Below, one piece after another: positions 50,272 to 60,887 of a stretch of 64,000 nt of DNA. Each line of letters starts with the position of its first letter. Position 1 is the first letter of the stretch. The position numbers and the translations under genes are program-made. Below the pieces are notes generated by a model. It did not search any database and was not told the DNA's origin. It saw only the letters and a list, made by a program, of their open reading frames with translations. Source of the stretch: Candidatus Kapaibacterium sp. (GTDB lineage Bacteria; Bacteroidota; Ignavibacteria; Kapaibacteriales; UBA2268); contig CP058732.1 of the NCBI GenBank assembly GCA_013414795.1, forward strand, positions 1,339,950 to 1,403,949, read 5' to 3'.

Positions 50272-53082
50272 TCATAATAGTTTTTTGGATAAATTCTTCG
50301 TTGGATTCATTATTTCATTGAAATAGTAGTTTTCTTTCGTACATTCTTCTGGGGTGATGAATTTCACATCCAATGGTTTAGGATGGTTGAAACCAGTGTT
50401 AATGTAAATAATTTCTTTCAATAATGCCTCCCAGGGTTCAAGCCAAGATACCAAACGCATCAAGTTTTCTTTGTTGTTTTCCACGAGAAATAGCAAATCC
50501 AGGTCCGAAGTTTCGGAGGCAGTTTTATTATAAACTGTTCCAAAAAGGTAAACTCCTAGAACACCATATTTAACTGGTTTTAGTTTGCTTATCATTTTCT
50601 CAGCAAATTTCCAACGAAGTTCCCAAGGCTCCTCGAGTTGTGCTTTTGCCTCTTTGACTAGTTTCGGTTGGTAAACTTTGAAAATTGGGGAAATTGACGA
50701 CTCGGAGAAAAATCCTATTGAAGTGTTTGAACTTGCGCTACTTATTATTTTAAGTACCTTCCCACCCGTTTCTTTGGGTATCGATACAACTTTGAGAATT
50801 GGTGAAAGGTGGACGTATTCTGGAAGAAACTCGCCTAAAAAGTTAAAAGACCTATTGATAAAGAATTCATTAAATATTGTACCTTCTTCTTGGAGTACAA
50901 TTGGAATGTAGAGAATATTTGATTCAACCAAATCTTGAAAAAAGTGCGTTCCGAAAGAAACTTCTGGGGAATATACTCCGAGAGTATTTGCAATTTCAAT
51001 CAGACAGGCTGTATTGAAAATAGAAGAGTATGTGACTTTGACTCCAAGTCTGAAATCATCTCGTGTACCCCAGCGACCAGGACCAATAAGAACAAATTTT
51101 TTTGCGGGTAGGAGGGTGTTTAATTTTCCGATTGCTTCTGAAATTTCGATGTATTCCTCCTTCGTGGTTATTTTGGAGTAGTTGGTTGGGTCAACAAAAA
51201 CAATATATTCAAGGTCGTTAGTTTTCCCGTTGCTAACGAATTTATGGGATTTGAAAAGCAAATCTTCTTCGGCAATGTTATCGGGTATTTCATATTGAAG
51301 GGAGTCTTTGATTGTGCTTTGTGAACGACATTGCAAAATGTACAAACTTTCACCATTGAAAGCAAATTCAATATCTACTGGTGTTCCCAATTCACTTTCC
51401 AAAATGTTCAATATCTTTCTTATTGTTGAAAGAAAATCAGTGTTTGTGAATAGATTGTCGAAGGTTACCAACAGTTCTTGTTCTCGTGGATTAATTGAAA
51501 ATCCAACTGGGCGTCTTAAAGTTTTCTCTTCGAGTATTGAGAATACTAAATTTATTGCGGGAAAGTAGTCTCCGTATTTTTTCATTAATTCATTTATTGA
51601 AACAGTTTCAAATTTGTTGGTTTTCAGATTTATTGCATCGAGACGGTGGGGTGAATACTTGATGTAGTCGGATATTTCTGTATAGACTTTTAAACCAGGT
51701 TTACCAGGGGATATGAGTATAGGATAGTCGTCCCCAGTACGGTCGACAGCCCTTGTACCCAATCCCACGACGAGTCTTATTAAGCCGTCATTTCGTTCCA
51801 ATCGTGGCGACCAGCGAAAGTCGTTATAACTAAATGCAACACCAGAGAAAATTGGGAAGAAATAATCCCCAACTTTGGTTCCAACAACTTCTTGTATCAT
51901 AATACCCATCTCTTCGTTGTAGTCCAAAAGATTGTGTTCAATTCGATAGCCGATTGGGTCGGGACTAAAAGTGGAAGCGTAGACTTCTGCAATCGCATCC
52001 ATCAAAGCGAGAAGTTTTTCTTCTTTGGTTCCTTGGTTTGCCAGAAAAATGCTTTTATACTTTCCAGGGAAAGCAGTGCCAACTCTGTCTTCCAAAAGAC
52101 TTGAAGAGCGAACAATGATTGGGTTGTCACCGAAATCGTCAAGGGCACGGACAAGACCGTTTATCATTTCGGGTGGAAATTGGGAATTTTTAAATACTTG
52201 GATAATATTTGGATACTCAATTCGAATTTCGTCGATTGACTTGTATTTCTGTTCAATAATATCCTCTAAATTGTTGTAGGTGAGAAAATCGTAAAACGCA
52301 TCCGAGGGAATAAACCAAGTTTTAGGAGTTTTAATTTTATCTAACGAAAATTGAGATTCTTTTCTCAAAGAGTGGGGATTTTCTTTGGCATAGTTTTGTA
52401 TAATTTTCGAAGCCAGTATCAAGCCAGCTGCCTTGCCTCCAAATCTTCCAATACCTTCTGTGGTGATAATTGTTTTAAGTAGTAATTCGTAGAAGTCTGT
52501 GATGCTCAAAAAGTTTTTTGAGATTTTAACAAATTCTAATTGGTCGGACAATAGACGGCGAGAAAGTGCAACTCGAATTCCTTGCACTGCTGGTGATGAT
52601 TTATATTGTTCTTCCATTTCTGATAAATTGGGTGTTTGATAGATGTATTTTCGCAATGCTTCGGTTATTTCTTTTAAAGGTATCGATTGATTTGTCAAGA
52701 GGCGAAGCAATCCGCTGGCTTTTTCTTCGAAAAGCCATTTTTGTATCAGATAAAGCATTTGTTCGTTGGATAGGTGATTTGATGCGACATCGAAAATTTC
52801 TTTTGAATACTTTAACGAGTTCTGCAACGCATTTTTTTGGCTCGGTTGGCTGTTATCGGTTAAAAAGTTTTCTCTTATGCTATCAGAATTCCAGAGGAAA
52901 TTACTAATCTCTTTCGCTTCGGGATATCCACGGAATAGTAAGTAATTGAGCATTTTCCTTGAGATTACAGAAAACAAATATGGGTCGATTTGCACCAAAG
53001 TATTGATTAGTTTTTTTAGTTCCTCTTTGCTGATTATTTCATTTTGTAAATTTTCATTGGAATTTGAATTGCTTTGTTTCAT
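50272..53082 (-). CDS. PEP/pyruvate-binding (ATP-grasp) domain protein fused to a nucleotidyltransferase
   Basis: I recognise the domains but not the function. After a helical N-terminal region (1-205) comes a pyruvate phosphate dikinase-like nucleotide-binding domain (about 208-595) with GGKAAGL (215-221), IVRSSSLLED (323-332), AFPGKYKS and IEFAFNGESLYILQCR. No phosphohistidine swivelling domain is visible. Residues 660-735 hold a module with GPGRWGT and SFGTHFFQDL, seen in other uncharacterised PEP-binding proteins. The C-terminus is a pol-beta-type nucleotidyltransferase: LFGTVY (846-851), SDLDL (859-863) and the likely third acid Asp905. It may transfer a nucleotide or phosphate to an unknown target. 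Confidence 0.8.
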   Translation of the reverse strand: MKQSNSNSNENLQNEIISKEELKKLINTLVQIDPYLFSVISRKMLNYLLFRGYPEAKEISNFLWNSDSIRENFLTDNSQPSQKNALQNSLKYSKEIFDVASNHLSNEQMLYLIQKWLFEEKASGLLRLLTNQSIPLKEITEALRKYIYQTPNLSEMEEQYKSSPAVQGIRVALSRRLLSDQLEFVKISKNFLSITDFYELLLKTIITTEGIGRFGGKAAGLILASKIIQNYAKENPHSLRKESQFSLDKIKTPKTWFIPSDAFYDFLTYNNLEDIIEQKYKSIDEIRIEYPNIIQVFKNSQFPPEMINGLVRALDDFGDNPIIVRSSSLLEDRVGTAFPGKYKSIFLANQGTKEEKLLALMDAIAEVYASTFSPDPIGYRIEHNLLDYNEEMGIMIQEVVGTKVGDYFFPIFSGVAFSYNDFRWSPRLERNDGLIRLVVGLGTRAVDRTGDDYPILISPGKPGLKVYTEISDYIKYSPHRLDAINLKTNKFETVSINELMKKYGDYFPAINLVFSILEEKTLRRPVGFSINPREQELLVTFDNLFTNTDFLSTIRKILNILESELGTPVDIEFAFNGESLYILQCRSQSTIKDSLQYEIPDNIAEEDLLFKSHKFVSNGKTNDLEYIVFVDPTNYSKITTKEEYIEISEAIGKLNTLLPAKKFVLIGPGRWGTRDDFRLGVKVTYSSIFNTACLIEIANTLGVYSPEVSFGTHFFQDLVESNILYIPIVLQEEGTIFNEFFINRSFNFLGEFLPEYVHLSPILKVVSIPKETGGKVLKIISSASSNTSIGFFSESSISPIFKVYQPKLVKEAKAQLEEPWELRWKFAEKMISKLKPVKYGVLGVYLFGTVYNKTASETSDLDLLFLVENNKENLMRLVSWLEPWEALLKEIIYINTGFNHPKPLDVKFITPEECTKENYYFNEIMNPTKNLSKKLL

Positions 53083-53161
53083 AGCAAACTTTGCATTTTG
53101 ATTAAAATTAGTTTTATTTGGAAAATAAATTTGATTAAAATAACAAAAAAATATTGTTTAG

Positions 53162-54988
53162 TTAAGAAATTTGCAATGTATATAATTTGTGATAAATATT
53201 TTTGTTTGCAAGGAGTTGCGAGTGGGTGCCTCGTTCGACAATTTTACCATTTTCAAAAACAAGAATTTCGTCTGCATTTACAATAGTGGAGAGTCGGTGT
53301 GCCACAATGACTGCAGTTTTGTCCTTCAAAGATGCGTTTATTGCCTCTTGAACAACTTTTTCCGATTCTGAATCGAGTGAAGAAGTGGCTTCGTCGAAGA
53401 TTAGTATTTCTGGATTACGAACCAAAGCCCTTGCGATAGCAATTCTTTGTCGCTCCCCGCCAGACAGCATAACACCACGCTCGCCAATCACAGTGTCTAA
53501 TCCCTCGGGTAGTTTCATAATAAAATTCAATGAATTAGAAATTTGACAGGCTTTCAATATGTCTTCTTCGCTTGCTTTTGGGTTTCCAATCAAAATATTA
53601 TTTCGAATTGTGTCGTTAAACAAAATAATTTCTTGGGATACAATTCCAAAAAGATTTCGATATTTGTGAATGTCAAATTCTTTGATGTTTACTCTGTCGA
53701 GTTTAATTTCTCCTTCGATTGGGTCATAAAAACGCACAATAAGGTCTACAATTGTCGACTTCCCACTTCCACTTGCACCAACAAGAGCAACTTTCTTCCC
53801 CTTTTCAACTTTGAATGATACATTTTTTAACACCAAATCGGAATTGTAGGCAAAGGATACATTTTCAAACTCGATGCATTTTTCAAATTTGGGTTCTTTG
53901 TTTTTATTAGAAACAATTTTGACTTCCTGGTCGAGAATATCGAAAACTCTTTTAGTAGAAACAATTCCACGCTGGAATTGAGATATGTTGTGTACTATTG
54001 TTGCAACTGGGCTCATTATCGAAAATAGAGCAAAAAGGAAAAGCATAAGTTCGTCGCCACGCATTTTGCCTTCCAAAACGAACGAACCCCCAACAAGAAA
54101 AACAATTACGAGGGCAATTATAGCAAAAATTTCATTCAAAGAAGGAACAAGAGATATTACTGATTGAAACTTGATTGATGACTTGAAATATTTATTGGTT
54201 TTATCGAAGAATTTACTTTTGGTTTGCTCTTCGAAGTTATAGCCTTTAATAATGCGTATTCCAGACAAAGATTCTTGGAGAACAGTTGTAAAATCTGCCA
54301 TTGCTCCTTGCATTCGGTTTGCATACCGTCGTAGGTAATAGGTTGAAATTCGTAGTATACCAATTGTAGCAATGCTTGAACTAAAAGCGATTAAAGAAAG
54401 AAATGGAGAAATGGAAAGCAATAGGAAAAGAAATAGAACAACCTGGATAAATTCTCGCAGAAGACCGGTTAAAGCAGAAATAGTTGTAGAATTTACAATT
54501 GTAACATCGTTTGTCAATGTGGAAATAATCGAACCAGCCTGTGTTGTGTTAAAATAGTTTAAATCGAGGGTCATTAGTTTCGAAAAAAGATTATTTCGGA
54601 TGTATCTGATAATGCTCTCTTCGAGCCTTGCATTAACAATTGAACCAAGGTATTTGAATAAATTTTTAAATACAAATAAGATTATGATGAACACACTTAA
54701 ATTGATAAGAGTAGATTTTACATCGTTTGGGTTAACGACAAGATTTTTTAGAAAGTTGAAAAACTCGTTCTTAATGTTTGATAACAAGTTGTTAGATTGT
54801 GTGTTCTGTTCAATTGAAATATTTGAGTTAAAAATTAATTCGAAGATTGGCTTAATAGTTGCGACTGTTGTTGCAGTTAAGGTAGAAAAGACAGTGTTTA
54901 AAATAATAGTAGCAATTAGCAAACCAAGAAATGGCTTTACAAAAGTAAAACTACGAAAAAAGTAGGACCGCTTTGGCTTATCACTCAT
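53162..54988 (-). CDS. ABC transporter, MsbA-like exporter (fused TM and ATPase domains)
   Basis: Half-transporter of the type I ABC exporter family. Six transmembrane segments occupy about 1-325, and the ATPase domain has Walker A GASGSGKST, the Q-loop, signature LSGGERQRIAI, Walker B ILIFDEATSSLD and the switch His in VAHRLSTI. At 608 residues it has the length of MsbA or lipid/drug exporters. The substrate is not evident. It overlaps tlpA by 4 bases upstream (ATGA) and lies 79 bases before the PEP-binding gene. Confidence 0.93.
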   Translation of the reverse strand: MSDKPKRSYFFRSFTFVKPFLGLLIATIILNTVFSTLTATTVATIKPIFELIFNSNISIEQNTQSNNLLSNIKNEFFNFLKNLVVNPNDVKSTLINLSVFIIILFVFKNLFKYLGSIVNARLEESIIRYIRNNLFSKLMTLDLNYFNTTQAGSIISTLTNDVTIVNSTTISALTGLLREFIQVVLFLFLLLSISPFLSLIAFSSSIATIGILRISTYYLRRYANRMQGAMADFTTVLQESLSGIRIIKGYNFEEQTKSKFFDKTNKYFKSSIKFQSVISLVPSLNEIFAIIALVIVFLVGGSFVLEGKMRGDELMLFLFALFSIMSPVATIVHNISQFQRGIVSTKRVFDILDQEVKIVSNKNKEPKFEKCIEFENVSFAYNSDLVLKNVSFKVEKGKKVALVGASGSGKSTIVDLIVRFYDPIEGEIKLDRVNIKEFDIHKYRNLFGIVSQEIILFNDTIRNNILIGNPKASEEDILKACQISNSLNFIMKLPEGLDTVIGERGVMLSGGERQRIAIARALVRNPEILIFDEATSSLDSESEKVVQEAINASLKDKTAVIVAHRLSTIVNADEILVFENGKIVERGTHSQLLANKNIYHKLYTLQIS

Positions 54989-55518
54989 TTGTTGTGGATT
55001 TCGTTTTCTTTGTTTTGTTGTTCTTCTTGTTCGAGAAGTTTTTTAATCATATCATAAAGATAATTTTCATCGCCAGTGGCGTATCCGTTGTGTTCCCAAA
55101 CAATTTCCCCTTTGGAATTGACAAGGAATGAGTGGGGTGGGTTGTTAACATTCATAGCACGACGGAAATCACCATTTTCGTCAAGGTAGACCTCAAATTT
55201 CCAGTTTCTACCTTTGACGAAAGGGGCAACTTTTTTTGAATTCCTTACATCATCGATAGAAACTGCAATGATTTTCACCCCAGTCTCTTCTTGCCATTTA
55301 TCATACACTTCGTGGATGTTGTTCAATTCCATAATACAAGGTTTGCACCAAGTTGCCCAAAAGTTTATTACAAAAGGTTTCCCGCCATTGTTAAATGTTT
55401 TGGTTTCGATGGTTTCGCCTTTTAAGTTTTTCACTTTAGTGTTGGGTATAGTCTTTTTTTCTTGTGCATAGGCAAATGTGAAAAGCAAAGCGATTAACAA
55501 AATAAGATACTTTTTCAT
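54985..55518 (-). CDS. TlpA-like thiol-disulfide oxidoreductase
   Basis: Periplasmic thioredoxin-fold protein. Signal peptide MKKYLILLIALLFTFAYAQ, then FVINFWATWCKPC with Cys58 and Cys61 as the redox pair, and the cis-Pro segment NVNNPPHSFLV. The C-terminal tail is very rich in Glu, Gln and Asn. It is the first gene of a minus-strand run with the ABC exporter. It may help maturation of secreted or membrane proteins with cysteines. Confidence 0.92.
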   Translation of the reverse strand: MKKYLILLIALLFTFAYAQEKKTIPNTKVKNLKGETIETKTFNNGGKPFVINFWATWCKPCIMELNNIHEVYDKWQEETGVKIIAVSIDDVRNSKKVAPFVKGRNWKFEVYLDENGDFRRAMNVNNPPHSFLVNSKGEIVWEHNGYATGDENYLYDMIKKLLEQEEQQNKENEIHNK

Positions 55519-55588
55519 AATTGTTCCTACAAAAATTTGAAAAAATTATTTAAATTAAACTTTTTAAAGAACAAAATTAATAATAATT

Positions 55589-56266
55589 ATGAAAAGACTT
55601 TTTATTTTACTTTTGGCGATAAGTTTATTCACCTATCCGCTATTTTCAAAAAGCATTGAAATTGTAAACGGAGATTTCCTTGTAACTACTTCACCGAATA
55701 CTGATGAAATTAAAGCACATTGTGTATTTAAAAATGTTTCCGACCAAACGATTGATGTTAAATTGACCATCAATCTGCTTGAAGCAACCGAGGGCTTGGA
55801 CGTTGCTTTCTGTTGGGGTCCAATATGTTACCCACCATTAGTTGTCAATGTGCCAAGGAATCCAAACGATGTGATAACATTAGCGCCAGGTGCAATTTCA
55901 GGCGAAAATGAATTTTACCTAACATTCAGTCCCAATGGGTACGAAGGAACAGCCGTAGTTGAGGCAATTCTTTATGTTGCTTCCAATCCAGAGGATTCTC
56001 TCCACCTAACATTCAAATTGACAACTGTACTTGGAGTGGAAGAACCAAGTTTAAATCCCCCTTTTGAATGTATCATTGTAGACTCAAAAGTAGAATTAGA
56101 AAAATTTGGTTTAAATAACAAGACCGTAGAAATTTATTCTTTAAACGGTTCTTTAATATCTAAATTAGAATTCACTAATCTATTAGATGTTTCTTTCTTA
56201 CCTAAAGGGATATATCTGTTAGTCCAAAATGAAACAAGGAAAAGAATTATAATAATAAAATTATAA
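55589..56266 (+). CDS. Secreted protein with short T9SS-like C-terminal domain
   Basis: Signal peptide (MKRLFILLLAISLFTYPLFS) and a beta-rich body containing the pair DVAFCWGPICYPPLVV. The last ~65 residues (VELEKFGLNNKTVEIYSLNGSLISKLEF ... LPKGIYLLVQNE) match the pattern of type-A sorting domains, although the usual NP motif is missing. It probably is exported by the T9SS; function unknown. It is transcribed away from tlpA and toward the hybrid kinase. Confidence 0.75.
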   Translation: MKRLFILLLAISLFTYPLFSKSIEIVNGDFLVTTSPNTDEIKAHCVFKNVSDQTIDVKLTINLLEATEGLDVAFCWGPICYPPLVVNVPRNPNDVITLAPGAISGENEFYLTFSPNGYEGTAVVEAILYVASNPEDSLHLTFKLTTVLGVEEPSLNPPFECIIVDSKVELEKFGLNNKTVEIYSLNGSLISKLEFTNLLDVSFLPKGIYLLVQNETRKRIIIIKL

Positions 56267-56306
56267 TTAATTAAATTTTAACATAATTAATTTTGTTTTT
56301 TCTTAT

Positions 56307-56312
56307 AGGAGA
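56307..56312 (+). promoter_or_regulatory. Shine-Dalgarno of the hybrid kinase gene
   Basis: AGGAGA lies 6 bases before ATG 56319 and supports that start. Confidence 0.65.
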
Positions 56313-56318
56313 AATCAA

Positions 56319-59300
56319 ATGATAGCATTTGATTTGGTTTTAAGGTTATCTCTACTTGTTGCTTTGGCTGTTTTTTCTGGTTTCATCGATAAATATTGGA
56401 AAAGAGACACACTTCGTGGACAGATTGTTCAGGGCTTATTGTTCGGTGTAACTGCTTTGGTAGGAATGGCATTTCCTTTTGAACTCGAACCAGGTTTGAT
56501 TTTTGACGGTCGTACAATTGTTATTAGTCTTTGTACTTTGTTCTTCGGACCAATATCTGGACTAATTGCTGGGTCAATGGCTGGCGTCTATCGCGTCTAT
56601 ATTGGTGGCGTGGGCTTACCAATGGGAATATTAACTACTTTAGAATCCTTTTTGGTAGGATTATATTTTTTTCGTATAAAATCAAAAAGAGATATTTTTT
56701 GGTTAAATACATTTCGTTTGTTTTTGTTTGGTTTGATTGTCCATCTAATAATGGGGCTATTGATTTTAGTACTTCCTTCTCGCTACGCATTACATGTTTT
56801 TAATAAAGTTGCCTTAACCATAATTGGAGTGTATCCTATCGTTTCGCTTCTCATTGGTAAAATTTTGTATGACCAGGAGGTTTCGAGTAGGTATATCGAA
56901 GTTTTAAGTAAGAGTGAATCGCTCTATCGAACCACTCTTTATTCCATTGGAGATGCTGTAATTACAACTGATTTTGATGGCAATGTTGTTAATATGAATT
57001 TTGTTGCTGAAGAATTGACTGGTTGGAAAGAAAGCCAAGCACGTGGGCGAGGGATTGGCGAAGTGTTTAATATTCTCAATGAATTTTCTTTGCAAAAAGT
57101 CGAAAATCCAGTTCAAAGAGTGCTTCGTGAAGGGAAGGTTGTTGGATTGGCAAACCATACTCTTTTGGTTTCACGTGATGGAAGAAAAATACCAATCGCT
57201 GATAGTGGAGCACCGATTAAAGATTCTTTTGGAAATATTTTGGGGGTGGTTCTTGTTTTTCGGGACCAAACTAAAGAGAGAGAATATATTCGGAAAATTG
57301 AGGAGCAAGAAAAACGCTACCGACAATTTGTATATTTTAGTTCAGATGGAATTTGGAGATTTGATATTGAAAAGCCAATTAATACACAATTACCTATAGA
57401 AGAACAAATTCGCTTGATATTTGAAAGTGGATTTTTGGCTGAATGCAATGATGTCTATGCCCAAATGTATGGCTTTCAAAAATCTTACGAGATTGTAGGA
57501 ATTAAACTAAAAGAGGTCCTGGACCCAAACGACCCAAATAATTTCGATTATTTAGCAAACTTTATTAAAAATGGATATAAACTCACTGGGGGAATATCGA
57601 AAGAATTCGACCGAAATGGTAATGTTAAGTATTTTGAAAATAATTTAGTTGGAATAATCGAGGATGGATTTCTAATACGTGCTTGGGGCACTCAAAAGGA
57701 AATAACAGACAAATATCTACTTGAACAAAGCCTTCGCGAAAGCGAAGAAAAGTTTCGATTACTTGCCGAAGCCTCGCTTGTTGGTATTTACTTAATACAA
57801 GATTTAAAATTTGTATATGTAAATAAAGCACTTGCCGACGTTTTTGGGTACGAAATAGAAGAGGTCATTGGTAAACTGGGTCCATTAGATTTAACACATC
57901 CAGATTACCACTCACAAGTTATCGAAAATACCAGAAAACGAGTTAGTGGTGAAGTTGAAAGCGTAAATTATTCGTTTAAAGGAGTTAAAAAAGATGGAAG
58001 TTCAATTTGGGTAGAGGTTTTTGGAAGACGCATAGAATACCAAGGGAAAGTTGGCATCATAGGTACTTTGATGGATATAACAAAAAGAGTTGAACTCGAA
58101 GAATTAAATAGAATTCAAAAAGAACAGTTGGAGAATACTCTTGAATTCACCCCTAATTTAGCAATTAAATTTTACGACGAAGAAGGCAGAATTAAATACT
58201 GGAATAATGCTTCAACAAATATTTATGGATGGACAAAAGAAGAGGCTTTGGGGAAGACACTCGACCAACTTATTTGGACCAAAGAAGAGGCAGAAGAATA
58301 CAAGAAAATATTGAAACAAATTGCCGAAACTGGGAAACCATACGGTCCTTTTGAATCAAAATATAGAAAAAAAGATGGAAGCGAGGGATGGATTGTTAGC
58401 ACTACATTTCAAATTCCTTCTTATGAAAACGAAAGAACATTTGTATGTATGGATATTGACATTACAGATAGGAAAACAGCAGAACTTGAATTAGAAGAAC
58501 AAAAAGGATTATTTGAAACATTGGTTCAAACACTTGCTTCTGCTGTGATTATTTACCAAAATGAGAAAATACTTTTTGCAAATAATTCACTTTCGGAAAT
58601 TACTGGTTATTCAATTGAAGAACTTTATTCAATGTCAATATTTGATTTAGTTCATCCAGACCAAAGGGAAACCGTAAAAAATATAGTAATAGCAAGATTT
58701 CTTGGGAAAGAAGTTCCCGGTAGATATGAAATTAAACTTCTTCGAAAGGATGGAGAAGTTAGATGGGTAGATTATTCTGTAAGAGTATTTGAATGGAAAG
58801 GTAAGAAAACTGCTTTAGGTACTGCAATAGATATAACAGAGCGAAAACTTGAAGAAGAGATAATCAAAATTCAATTTAATGTTGCAGACGCACTTGTTAA
58901 AGAAAAATCGCTTTACAAGTTTTTCGAAGTTGTTCGGGATGAACTTTCCAGAGTAATCGATACAAAAAATTTGTTTGTTGCATTTTACGACGAAGAAAAT
59001 GACGAACTTTATTCCCCATTCGAATGGGACGAAAAAATGGATGCACCTGTTCGGTGGAGTGCAAAAAACTCCCTTACTGGGAAAGTTATTAGGGAATGTA
59101 GAACTCTATTTTTAAAGAGGGAAGATATTGATGAATTGATATCTCGGGGCGAAGTCGAACAGATTGGCTCACCAGCAAAATGTTGGCTTGGAACTCCTTT
59201 GATTGTTTCTGGTAAACCCTATGGCGCAATTGTAGTGCAAAGTTACAACAATCCGAATGCTTACGACCGACGAAGTGTCGAATTGTTAGAACTTGTCGCT

Positions 59301-60887
59301 TCGCAACTTTCGACTTATATTGTTCAGAAACTACAAACAGAGGAATTAACAAAGTTATCACGCGCAGTTGAAGAAAGCGAAGTTGGAATAGCTATCACAG
59401 ACATAAATGGTACGATAGAATATGTAAATCCAAAATTTGCAGAAGTGACCGGATATTCCCCAGAGGAATTAATTGGACGAAACCCGAGAATTCTAAAATC
59501 TGGCTACCATTCCAAAGAATTTTACAAGAACCTTTGGGATACGATTTTAAGTGGTAAGAGTTGGATTGGAGAATTTCGGAACCGAAGGAAGAATGGCGAA
59601 CTTTATTGGGAAGAGGGTAGAATTTCTCCAATCTTCAATGATGAAGGAAAGATTACCCATTTCGTTGCAATAAAAAAAGATATTACTGAACAGAAGAAAC
59701 TTATTGAAGAATTAATTCAAGCAAAGGAGAAAGCCCTTGAAAGCGAGCGTCTTAAAACTGCATTTTTAGGAAACATTAGCCACGAAGTAAGAACTCCACT
59801 AAATGGTCTTCTTGGTTTTGCCCAATTGCTTGAATCTCAATCGTTTCCACCCCAAGAAGTTAAAAGATTTGCAGGAATAATAGTTAAAAAAGCAAACGAG
59901 TTGCTTTCCCTTTTCAATGAAATTTTAGATTTGTCTTTGATTGAAGCAAACCAAATGAGGATTATTCCGAAGCAGGTAAACATAAACCAGATATTGTACG
60001 ATACCTATTCTACATTTCTTTTGGATGAAAAGGTACAAAGAAAAGAGGTTGAGTTGAAGATTGGCAAAACTCTTCCTGACGATTTTGAAATTTTTACCGA
60101 CCCAATTCGATTAAAAGAAGTTTTGTACAATTTGGTTGAAAATGGGTTGAAATTTACAAAAAGTGGTTATGTGGAATTTGGGGCAAATATACTTGAAAGC
60201 GGCGAAGTTGAGTTTTACGTTAAGGATACTGGAATTGGAATAACAAAGGGCCAATTAGATGTTATATTTGAAAGATTTCAACAGGTAGAAACGGACTTTA
60301 TCCGGCGTGAGTACGAAGGTGCCGGGATTGGTTTGCCATTATGCAAGGGATTAGTTAAATTACTTGGCGGAAGGATATGGGTGGAATCTGAATTGGGTCA
60401 AGGTTCTACCTTTTACTTTACGATTGCACCATTTAAAACAGAAATGATAGAAAAGGACATTAAATACGATGACTTTAGAAATTTAGATTATACAATCGAA
60501 GACAAGTTTGTTTTTCTTGTTGCCGAAGACGATTATATTAATTCCGTCGTATTGGAAAAATTTTTGCAAAAGAATTTCAATTGCGAGGTTTTAAATGCAA
60601 AAAATGGTAAAGAAGCAATTGAAATAGCACAGAATCGTAAAGATATCGATTTGATTCTTCTCGATATTCGAATGCCAATTGTCGATGGTTATACTGCTTT
60701 CAGCGAAATCCGAAAAATCAACCCAGATGTTCCAATTATCGCAGTTACCGCATATGCATATACCGAGGATAGGAAGAAGATTATTCAATTTGGTTTTGAT
60801 GATTACATTTCAAAGCCTTTCGATTTAAAGGAAGTAGGAGCAAAGATAAGCAATATAATTTACGAAAGGAAAAACCAGAAAAAATAA
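56319..60887 (+). CDS. Hybrid sensor histidine kinase with 5TMR-LYT, multiple PAS, GAF and receiver domains
   Basis: Inner-membrane sensor of 1522 residues. Domains in order: a 5TMR-LYT membrane sensor (about 1-185, with GLIFDGRTIVISLCTLFFGP); five PAS-like domains (about 195-845, e.g. LYRTTLYSIGDAVITTD, RLLAEASLVGIYLIQ); a GAF domain (about 850-1010); a sixth PAS (about 1015-1130); HisKA with His1155 in NISHEVRTPLNG; HATPase with NLVENGLKFT and VKDTGIGI; and a receiver with Asp1449 in LILLDIRMP. No DNA-binding output is attached, so a separate phosphotransfer protein and regulator are expected. The signal is unknown; LytS-type sensors respond to small metabolites or membrane state. Confidence 0.92.
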   Translation: MIAFDLVLRLSLLVALAVFSGFIDKYWKRDTLRGQIVQGLLFGVTALVGMAFPFELEPGLIFDGRTIVISLCTLFFGPISGLIAGSMAGVYRVYIGGVGLPMGILTTLESFLVGLYFFRIKSKRDIFWLNTFRLFLFGLIVHLIMGLLILVLPSRYALHVFNKVALTIIGVYPIVSLLIGKILYDQEVSSRYIEVLSKSESLYRTTLYSIGDAVITTDFDGNVVNMNFVAEELTGWKESQARGRGIGEVFNILNEFSLQKVENPVQRVLREGKVVGLANHTLLVSRDGRKIPIADSGAPIKDSFGNILGVVLVFRDQTKEREYIRKIEEQEKRYRQFVYFSSDGIWRFDIEKPINTQLPIEEQIRLIFESGFLAECNDVYAQMYGFQKSYEIVGIKLKEVLDPNDPNNFDYLANFIKNGYKLTGGISKEFDRNGNVKYFENNLVGIIEDGFLIRAWGTQKEITDKYLLEQSLRESEEKFRLLAEASLVGIYLIQDLKFVYVNKALADVFGYEIEEVIGKLGPLDLTHPDYHSQVIENTRKRVSGEVESVNYSFKGVKKDGSSIWVEVFGRRIEYQGKVGIIGTLMDITKRVELEELNRIQKEQLENTLEFTPNLAIKFYDEEGRIKYWNNASTNIYGWTKEEALGKTLDQLIWTKEEAEEYKKILKQIAETGKPYGPFESKYRKKDGSEGWIVSTTFQIPSYENERTFVCMDIDITDRKTAELELEEQKGLFETLVQTLASAVIIYQNEKILFANNSLSEITGYSIEELYSMSIFDLVHPDQRETVKNIVIARFLGKEVPGRYEIKLLRKDGEVRWVDYSVRVFEWKGKKTALGTAIDITERKLEEEIIKIQFNVADALVKEKSLYKFFEVVRDELSRVIDTKNLFVAFYDEENDELYSPFEWDEKMDAPVRWSAKNSLTGKVIRECRTLFLKREDIDELISRGEVEQIGSPAKCWLGTPLIVSGKPYGAIVVQSYNNPNAYDRRSVELLELVASQLSTYIVQKLQTEELTKLSRAVEESEVGIAITDINGTIEYVNPKFAEVTGYSPEELIGRNPRILKSGYHSKEFYKNLWDTILSGKSWIGEFRNRRKNGELYWEEGRISPIFNDEGKITHFVAIKKDITEQKKLIEELIQAKEKALESERLKTAFLGNISHEVRTPLNGLLGFAQLLESQSFPPQEVKRFAGIIVKKANELLSLFNEILDLSLIEANQMRIIPKQVNINQILYDTYSTFLLDEKVQRKEVELKIGKTLPDDFEIFTDPIRLKEVLYNLVENGLKFTKSGYVEFGANILESGEVEFYVKDTGIGITKGQLDVIFERFQQVETDFIRREYEGAGIGLPLCKGLVKLLGGRIWVESELGQGSTFYFTIAPFKTEMIEKDIKYDDFRNLDYTIEDKFVFLVAEDDYINSVVLEKFLQKNFNCEVLNAKNGKEAIEIAQNRKDIDLILLDIRMPIVDGYTAFSEIRKINPDVPIIAVTAYAYTEDRKKIIQFGFDDYISKPFDLKEVGAKISNIIYERKNQKK

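Follow-up and report, generated by a model that had tools for sequence, protein, structure and literature searches.

The question raised by this locus is what is done by a protein in which an ATP-grasp domain of the dikinase type is joined to a nucleotidyltransferase (NTase), and which cellular process it serves. The gene lies on the reverse strand of the window (by which we mean the whole stretch of 64,000 nucleotides analysed, from Candidatus Kapaibacterium sp.), and its features are collected in Table 1. The initial annotation had described the product as a PEP/pyruvate-binding ATP-grasp domain fused to an NTase and lacking a phosphohistidine domain. Both parts of this fusion were recovered in Pfam searches of the 936-aa protein: PPDK_N (PF01326) matched with an E-value of 4.6e-56 and 190.9 bits (cut-off 27), and NTP_transf_2 matched residues 838-914 with 23.1 bits (cut-off 21), the Polbeta match in the C-terminal domain being slightly below threshold (NTP_transf_2 and Polbeta together span residues 815-914). 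The motifs GPGRWGT (residues 667-673), GTHFFQDL (711-718) and SDLDL (in the NTase) were likewise found as annotated. The fusion is real, since it recurs over nearly the full length, with 42-71% identity, in Ignavibacteria/Kapabacteria, Calditrichota, Acidobacteria and other MAGs; this range of phyla is not claimed strictly, because MAG taxon labels, such as that of Desulfobulbaceae for contig L054 (nearly identical to L042), may reflect contamination.

Table 1. Features of the dikinase-like gene and its upstream neighbours (positions in the window).
Feature	Residues	Coordinates	Strand	Remarks
Whole gene	936 aa	50272..53082	-	ATG start; helical N-terminus + PPDK_N ATP-grasp + cryptic swivel-like module + pol-beta NTase
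All-helical N-terminal region	19-202	52477..53028	-	AF2 model and alignment
PPDK_N ATP-grasp domain	214-605	51268..52443	-	Conserved K217, R325, E572, Q584, R586
Cryptic swivelling beta/beta/alpha (phosphohistidine-like) module	607-793	50704..51264	-	AF2 of residues 586-800 and structural matches
GPGRWG motif	667-672	51067..51084	-	Homologue alignment
SFGTHFF motif	709-715	50938..50958	-	H713 codon 50944-50946
Pol-beta-type NTase domain	815-936	50275..50640	-	G848-T849, D860-x-D862, D905
ABC exporter, immediate upstream neighbour		53162..54988	-	Probable same transcription unit in genus
TlpA-like thioredoxin		54985..55518	-	Overlaps ABC gene by 4 bases

Comparison with models of named enzymes gave scores of 55.7 bits for PPDK / PEP synthase proper (TIGR01418; 739.75 needed), 34.1 bits for the rifampin phosphotransferase (RPH) equivalog RIF_Ptrans_rph (999 needed) and 19.7 bits for MntA (far under its cut-off of 60), the first two from NCBIfam; the GlnE/GlnD families were not matched in the Pfam and NCBIfam scans, and no Pfam domain for a PEP/pyruvate-binding barrel was present in the protein. 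PF00391 gave no match in it or in 19 homologues. Elsewhere in the genome PF00391 matched twice, in ORFs of 948 and 587 aa; the former is a PPDK-like protein and the one further PPDK_N protein encoded there. Residues 606-815 were left unnamed by Pfam, NCBIfam, PADLOC and PDB sequences; a profile of this module gave no match among PDB sequences, nor were relatives found with it in viral contigs. Membership of a defence system was also considered and rejected, since the matches were weak, were to small NTase models only (PDC-S09) and were judged to reflect generic NTase similarity.

The unnamed module was approached by structure prediction. It was poorly modelled by AF2 in the full-length protein (pLDDT <50 at residues 702-722), and this model was not used for it. 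Prediction of residues 586-800 alone, from 30 sequences, gave a pLDDT of 88.5 and a pTM of 0.88, the improvement being due to the addition of ~580-aa paralogues to the alignment. The best VIA-align rows for this isolated model were mostly phosphohistidine/PEP-utilizer domains, delimited at their exact domain ranges, with Z scores of 5.1-6.3, a range in which merely a common arrangement may be shared. They included the C-terminus of pyruvate kinase (3t05, 474-583; Z 6.3, 106 aligned, rmsd 3.1), RPH (5fbu, 756-867; Z 6.1), whose published swivel domain comprises residues 767-865 with His825 (PMC4844700), and the phosphoryl-carrier domain of PPDK (2fm4, 386-511; Z 5.8). The subsequent rows (1ggo, 5jvj, 2r82, 5jvl and 5fbs) had further PPDK and RPH entries among them. 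Lower rows contained RraA, the carbamoyl-phosphate synthetase small subunit and chaperonin apical domains, which we take to represent the swivelling beta/beta/alpha class.

At the sequence level, hhalign of the module against 27 PEP-utilizer sequences gave a probability of 0.1%, similar to the reversed controls, and a phosphohistidine domain of the GGxTSHxA / PF00391 type was unrecognisable in the protein. Foldseek, run on the module model, returned no significant match. Phosphohistidine domains of PEP-utilizers carry T-S-H at the place where, in the AF2 module model, H713 starts a helix after a G-[ST]-H turn. By the order of the elements and its relative position, H713 is proposed to correspond to the known phospho-His. 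The module is thus probably a disguised swivelling phosphohistidine domain, by fold and not by proven homology. The view that the protein has no such domain, which Pfam and hhalign favour, was set aside as probably wrong, given the match of the isolated model to swivel domains and the invariance of H713; a cryptic domain finds support at the level of fold, with weak Z scores, and none at that of sequence.

The flanking domains were more readily placed. In a comparison of models, the ATP-grasp domain aligned to RPH (5hv3) with a Z score of 22.8 over 321 residues (rmsd 3.5), and the NTase domain to the MNT of a HEPN-MNT complex (8xeh) with a Z score of 8.0 over 98 residues, its best structural relatives including both MNT and the spectinomycin adenylyltransferase AAD(9). 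Conservation was scored in an alignment of 159 proteins from three subfamilies and, for the NTase residues, in the 57 long forms. The catalytic residues have not been lost among the homologues: hardly any of the 159 departs from K217, R325, E572, Q584 and R586 in the ATP-grasp domain, and the NTase retains its D-x-D in 55 of 57 and D905 in 56. K217 and R325 occupy the positions of Lys22 and Arg117 in RPH; in RPH-Lm, mutation of either residue abolishes RIF resistance, while the Glu297Ala variant remains active (PMC4844700). In the module, G669, R670, S709, H713, F714 and F715 are invariant (G669, R670 and H713 in 159/159). With its PPDK_N domain and ATP-site residues the protein belongs to the PEP-utilising dikinase superfamily, and the C-terminal domain, with hG[ST]...DxD, a third Asp and the corresponding fold, to the pol-beta NTase superfamily.

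Four architectures share a common core. The long form with the NTase mostly carries an additional GAF-like N-terminal domain of ~120 aa; a ~780-aa form is the core without the NTase; a ~580-aa form consists of PPDK_N and the module and nothing else; and a ~1000-aa form has a receiver-like N-terminal domain and no NTase. Of 247 Bacteroidales genomes sampled, 213 encode this last relative, which in the curated libraries consulted is named for its PPDK_N part and receiver-like N-terminus only. The GAF-like domain is absent from the window protein and its nearest relative (L035:9956-12739); in the former it has truly been lost, since the start codon lies only 79 bases from the ABC gene. Two long members of the same genus (L036 and L037) retain it. 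In one locus (L106:9446-14417), whose fetched stretch contained no GDH, the gene for a ~780-aa form comes immediately after that for an 872-aa paralogue; such pairs of paralogues may assemble into heteromers. Both paralogue types were also present on contigs L053 and L056, labelled Chloroflexi, a MAG assignment that is a label only. This enzyme family is real and is undescribed in the libraries and literature searched; it is a variant of the dikinase superfamily and not a new class of chemistry.

The main discovery lay in the genomic neighbourhood. An ABC exporter and tlpA had been noted beside the gene, and both were confirmed, the exporter showing synteny in L035, L036 and L037. The order tlpA - ABC exporter - dikinase-like gene was kept in four species of the genus (window 50272-60887), and a gene for a 1522-aa multi-PAS hybrid histidine kinase lies beyond it. 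Since this order is conserved within the genus only, TlpA/ABC export was rejected as the functional context: the gene has moved to the tlpA-ABC operon in the genus of the window, and the association that proved widespread in the neighbourhood survey was with glutamate dehydrogenase (GDH).

Pfam assigned the neighbouring genes of the homologues to GDH (ELFV_dehydrog, with E-values as low as 7.5e-84). GDH lay within 3 kb of 67 of 86 module proteins, typically ~100 bp away and on the same strand, and was present in 50 of 65 loci drawn from the phylum; in a wider set of loci it occurred in 59 of 83, the next commonest neighbour family reaching 17. The genomes are related and the counts hence not independent, and the linkage is nonetheless overwhelming against a chance rate near 1%. 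Six NTase-type genes from the family of the window stand divergently beside GDH (G009, G013, G020, G024, G028 and G034), and among further Bacteroidales loci chosen regardless of GDH about half had it close by. The linkage is strong and not universal: in the window genome itself the two genes are unlinked, with GDH 175 kb from the dikinase-like gene. A GDH-family protein was found in 60 of 60 relatives searched, including every module-bearing genome. The module occurs only where a close GDH (>=68% identity) occurs, and there are genomes that have this GDH and no module, which fits an accessory role. Since 8 of 36 genomes of the window's family had GDH and no detected module protein, GDH does not need the module everywhere. 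The adjacency in relatives suggests that the protein controls GDH, a key enzyme of nitrogen metabolism.

Some loci showed further peculiarities of arrangement. The GDH gene and the module gene share a few bases in two of them (L051:6297-10429 and L096:5843-10011), which suggests translational coupling. Between two pairs of GDH and ~1000-aa genes, a PAS histidine kinase and a response regulator are encoded in L090, and a response regulator again, with another gene, in L093. Members of this regulator's family turned up in 10 loci, and it is possibly a transcriptional partner of the GDH/module system.

The linkage extends to all three subfamilies (long NTase, ~580 aa and ~1000 aa) and follows the type of GDH. 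The NTase form was paired with the 428-aa GDH type in 26 of 26 cases and the ~580-aa form in 15 of 17, while the partner of the ~1000-aa form was mostly of the gdhA type. This pattern bears on two other readings. It is very unlikely that the NTase is the working enzyme, AMPylating or UMPylating GDH or a small molecule, with the ATP-grasp/swivel part as its regulator; such a role would agree with its conserved D-x-D and third Asp (55-56 of 57) and with structural relatives such as MNT and AAD(9), but the ~780-, ~580- and ~1000-aa relatives keep the core and have no NTase, and since the ~580- and ~1000-aa forms remain linked to GDH without it, the core function does not reside in this domain. 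A dikinase acting on a small molecule of glutamate/2-oxoglutarate metabolism, in the manner of RPH and the phenol kinases, would be linked to GDH through a shared pathway, and known enzymes with PPDK_N and a swivel domain and without the barrel do mostly target small molecules (PMC4844700, PMC12167813). We consider this unlikely, however, because the linkage is to GDH itself, is specific to GDH subfamilies and is not pathway-wide, other pathway genes recurring far less often, and because the ~580- and ~780-aa forms comprise only helical, ATP-grasp and swivel parts and have no extra substrate domain.

On balance, and with moderate confidence, we favour a divergent dikinase-type phosphotransferase devoted to GDH, in which phosphate would pass from ATP to His713 and on to an acceptor that controls GDH, the NTase forming a second layer. 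The proposal starts from the computed domains, invariant residues, swivel-like modelled fold, GDH linkage and subfamily pairing; from these we infer a chemistry by way of phosphohistidine, the formation of AMP, GDH as the enzyme targeted and the role of the NTase. The ATP-grasp domain would bind ATP and pass a phosphoryl group to His713 on the swivelling module, with release of AMP and Pi as in PPDK, PEP synthase and RPH. The phosphorylated module would then swing to a second site and phosphorylate the GDH-controlling acceptor, GDH itself being the likeliest candidate. The C-terminal NTase of the long form may supply the second layer, for instance by nucleotidylation of the same target or by its reversal, and metabolic state might be fed in through the sensor-like domain found at the N-terminus in most long relatives. 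We also infer that the function persists in the window's genus, where this gene and GDH lie apart. Much of this would look the same if the protein were a GDH partner and not a phosphotransferase, namely an ATP/AMP-sensing assembly factor or allosteric subunit in which adenylate charge is read out by the ATP-grasp domain and H713 has a structural role or binds a metal: the GDH linkage would be identical, and the module has no sequence link to phosphohistidine domains. Such a role is unlikely, as the catalytic ATP-grasp residues and H713 are invariant, whereas pure sensors usually relax their catalytic residues, and as the modelled fold of the module resembles phosphohistidine domains. The phosphotransferase reading leaves the first interpretation of the gene partly standing: the protein departs from canonical dikinases and could plausibly act as a regulator or a modifier of proteins, while the phosphohistidine domain is probably not missing.

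The distribution of the ~1000-aa form connects the family with an old genetic observation. Trans-acting gene(s) downstream of gdhA were reported in Bacteroides by Baggio & Morrison (1996), whose title, as cited in PMC4539542, concerns NAD(P)H-utilizing GDH activity in a B. species. The ~1000-aa gene is 3 kb long. In that 1996 work a downstream segment of ~3 kb reportedly restored GDH activity in E. coli. Two Bacteroidales genomes near Bacteroides by 16S (L098 and L150) have the ~1000-aa gene within ~300 bases of GDH; this placement used an approximate B. thetaiotaomicron 16S segment as the query. Genomes 91-93% identical to that approximate query, taken as the same family/genus level, carry the ~1000-aa gene. 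GDH is close to it in G285, G277, G690 and G481 and ~1.9 kb away in G843, and was not found in the fetched surroundings of the gene in G829. Tentatively, and as a possibility we would hold below an even chance, the family may form a widespread system of post-translational GDH control in Bacteroidota and neighbouring phyla, in which dikinase-type enzymes with a swivelling phosphohistidine domain of a new class, marked by GxGRWG...SxG[ST]HFF, would phosphorylate or activate the paired GDH and the NTase of the long form would add a second, possibly opposing, modification. If true, such a system would account for the trans-acting gene(s) of the 1996 report. A functional GDH link would point to the likely control gene, open that genetic observation to direct test, and bring into the dikinase superfamily a class of phosphohistidine domain that has gone unrecognised. 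GDH joins carbon and nitrogen metabolism, and little is known of its control in Bacteroidota, gut Bacteroidales included. The family is more interesting for this link than for a supposedly missing domain.

Among known systems, PPDK and PEP synthase share with the window protein a PPDK_N domain with conserved ATP-site residues, directly after which, in the same order, the window protein has its swivel-like module; unlike them, it has no PEP/pyruvate-binding barrel, and the canonical PPDK-like ORF of its genome (948 aa) is a separate protein. GlnE and GlnD are pol-beta NTases that act in ammonia assimilation by nucleotidylation of proteins, their targets being glutamine synthetase and PII. The likeness to them lies in the pol-beta NTase and is an analogy only, the ATP-grasp/swivel core having no counterpart there. 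The C-terminal domain resembles the MNT/MntA adenylyltransferases of HEPN-MNT pairs (8xeh) in fold (Z 8.0) and D-x-D, but a HEPN partner was not seen for the window protein. RPH (5hv3/5fbu; PMC4844700) is alike in its PPDK_N fold (Z 22.8), the equivalents of Lys22 and Arg117, the swivel match (Z 6.1) and the absence of the pyruvate barrel from both; it differs in that the window protein has no rifampin-binding domain, has a module without detectable sequence similarity to PF00391, and carries a helical N-terminus and a C-terminal NTase, with GDH linkage in its relatives. The two-component dikinase HpeHI, which converts ATP to AMP with a swivel domain and phosphorylates phenols, offers in HpeI a homologue of the ATP-grasp domain (9goj, Z 16.6), and differs from the window protein in being split over two chains and in acting on phenols (PMC12167813). 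Finally, VadK (Rv1127c) is described as a regulatory histidine kinase of PPDK descent, which phosphorylates itself, interacts with enzymes of metabolism and adjusts the flux through a pathway (PMC13400623). Its target there is the methylcitrate cycle, unlike that proposed for the window family, and the likeness is conceptual: VadK provides a precedent for a PPDK derivative turned into a regulatory kinase of metabolic enzymes.
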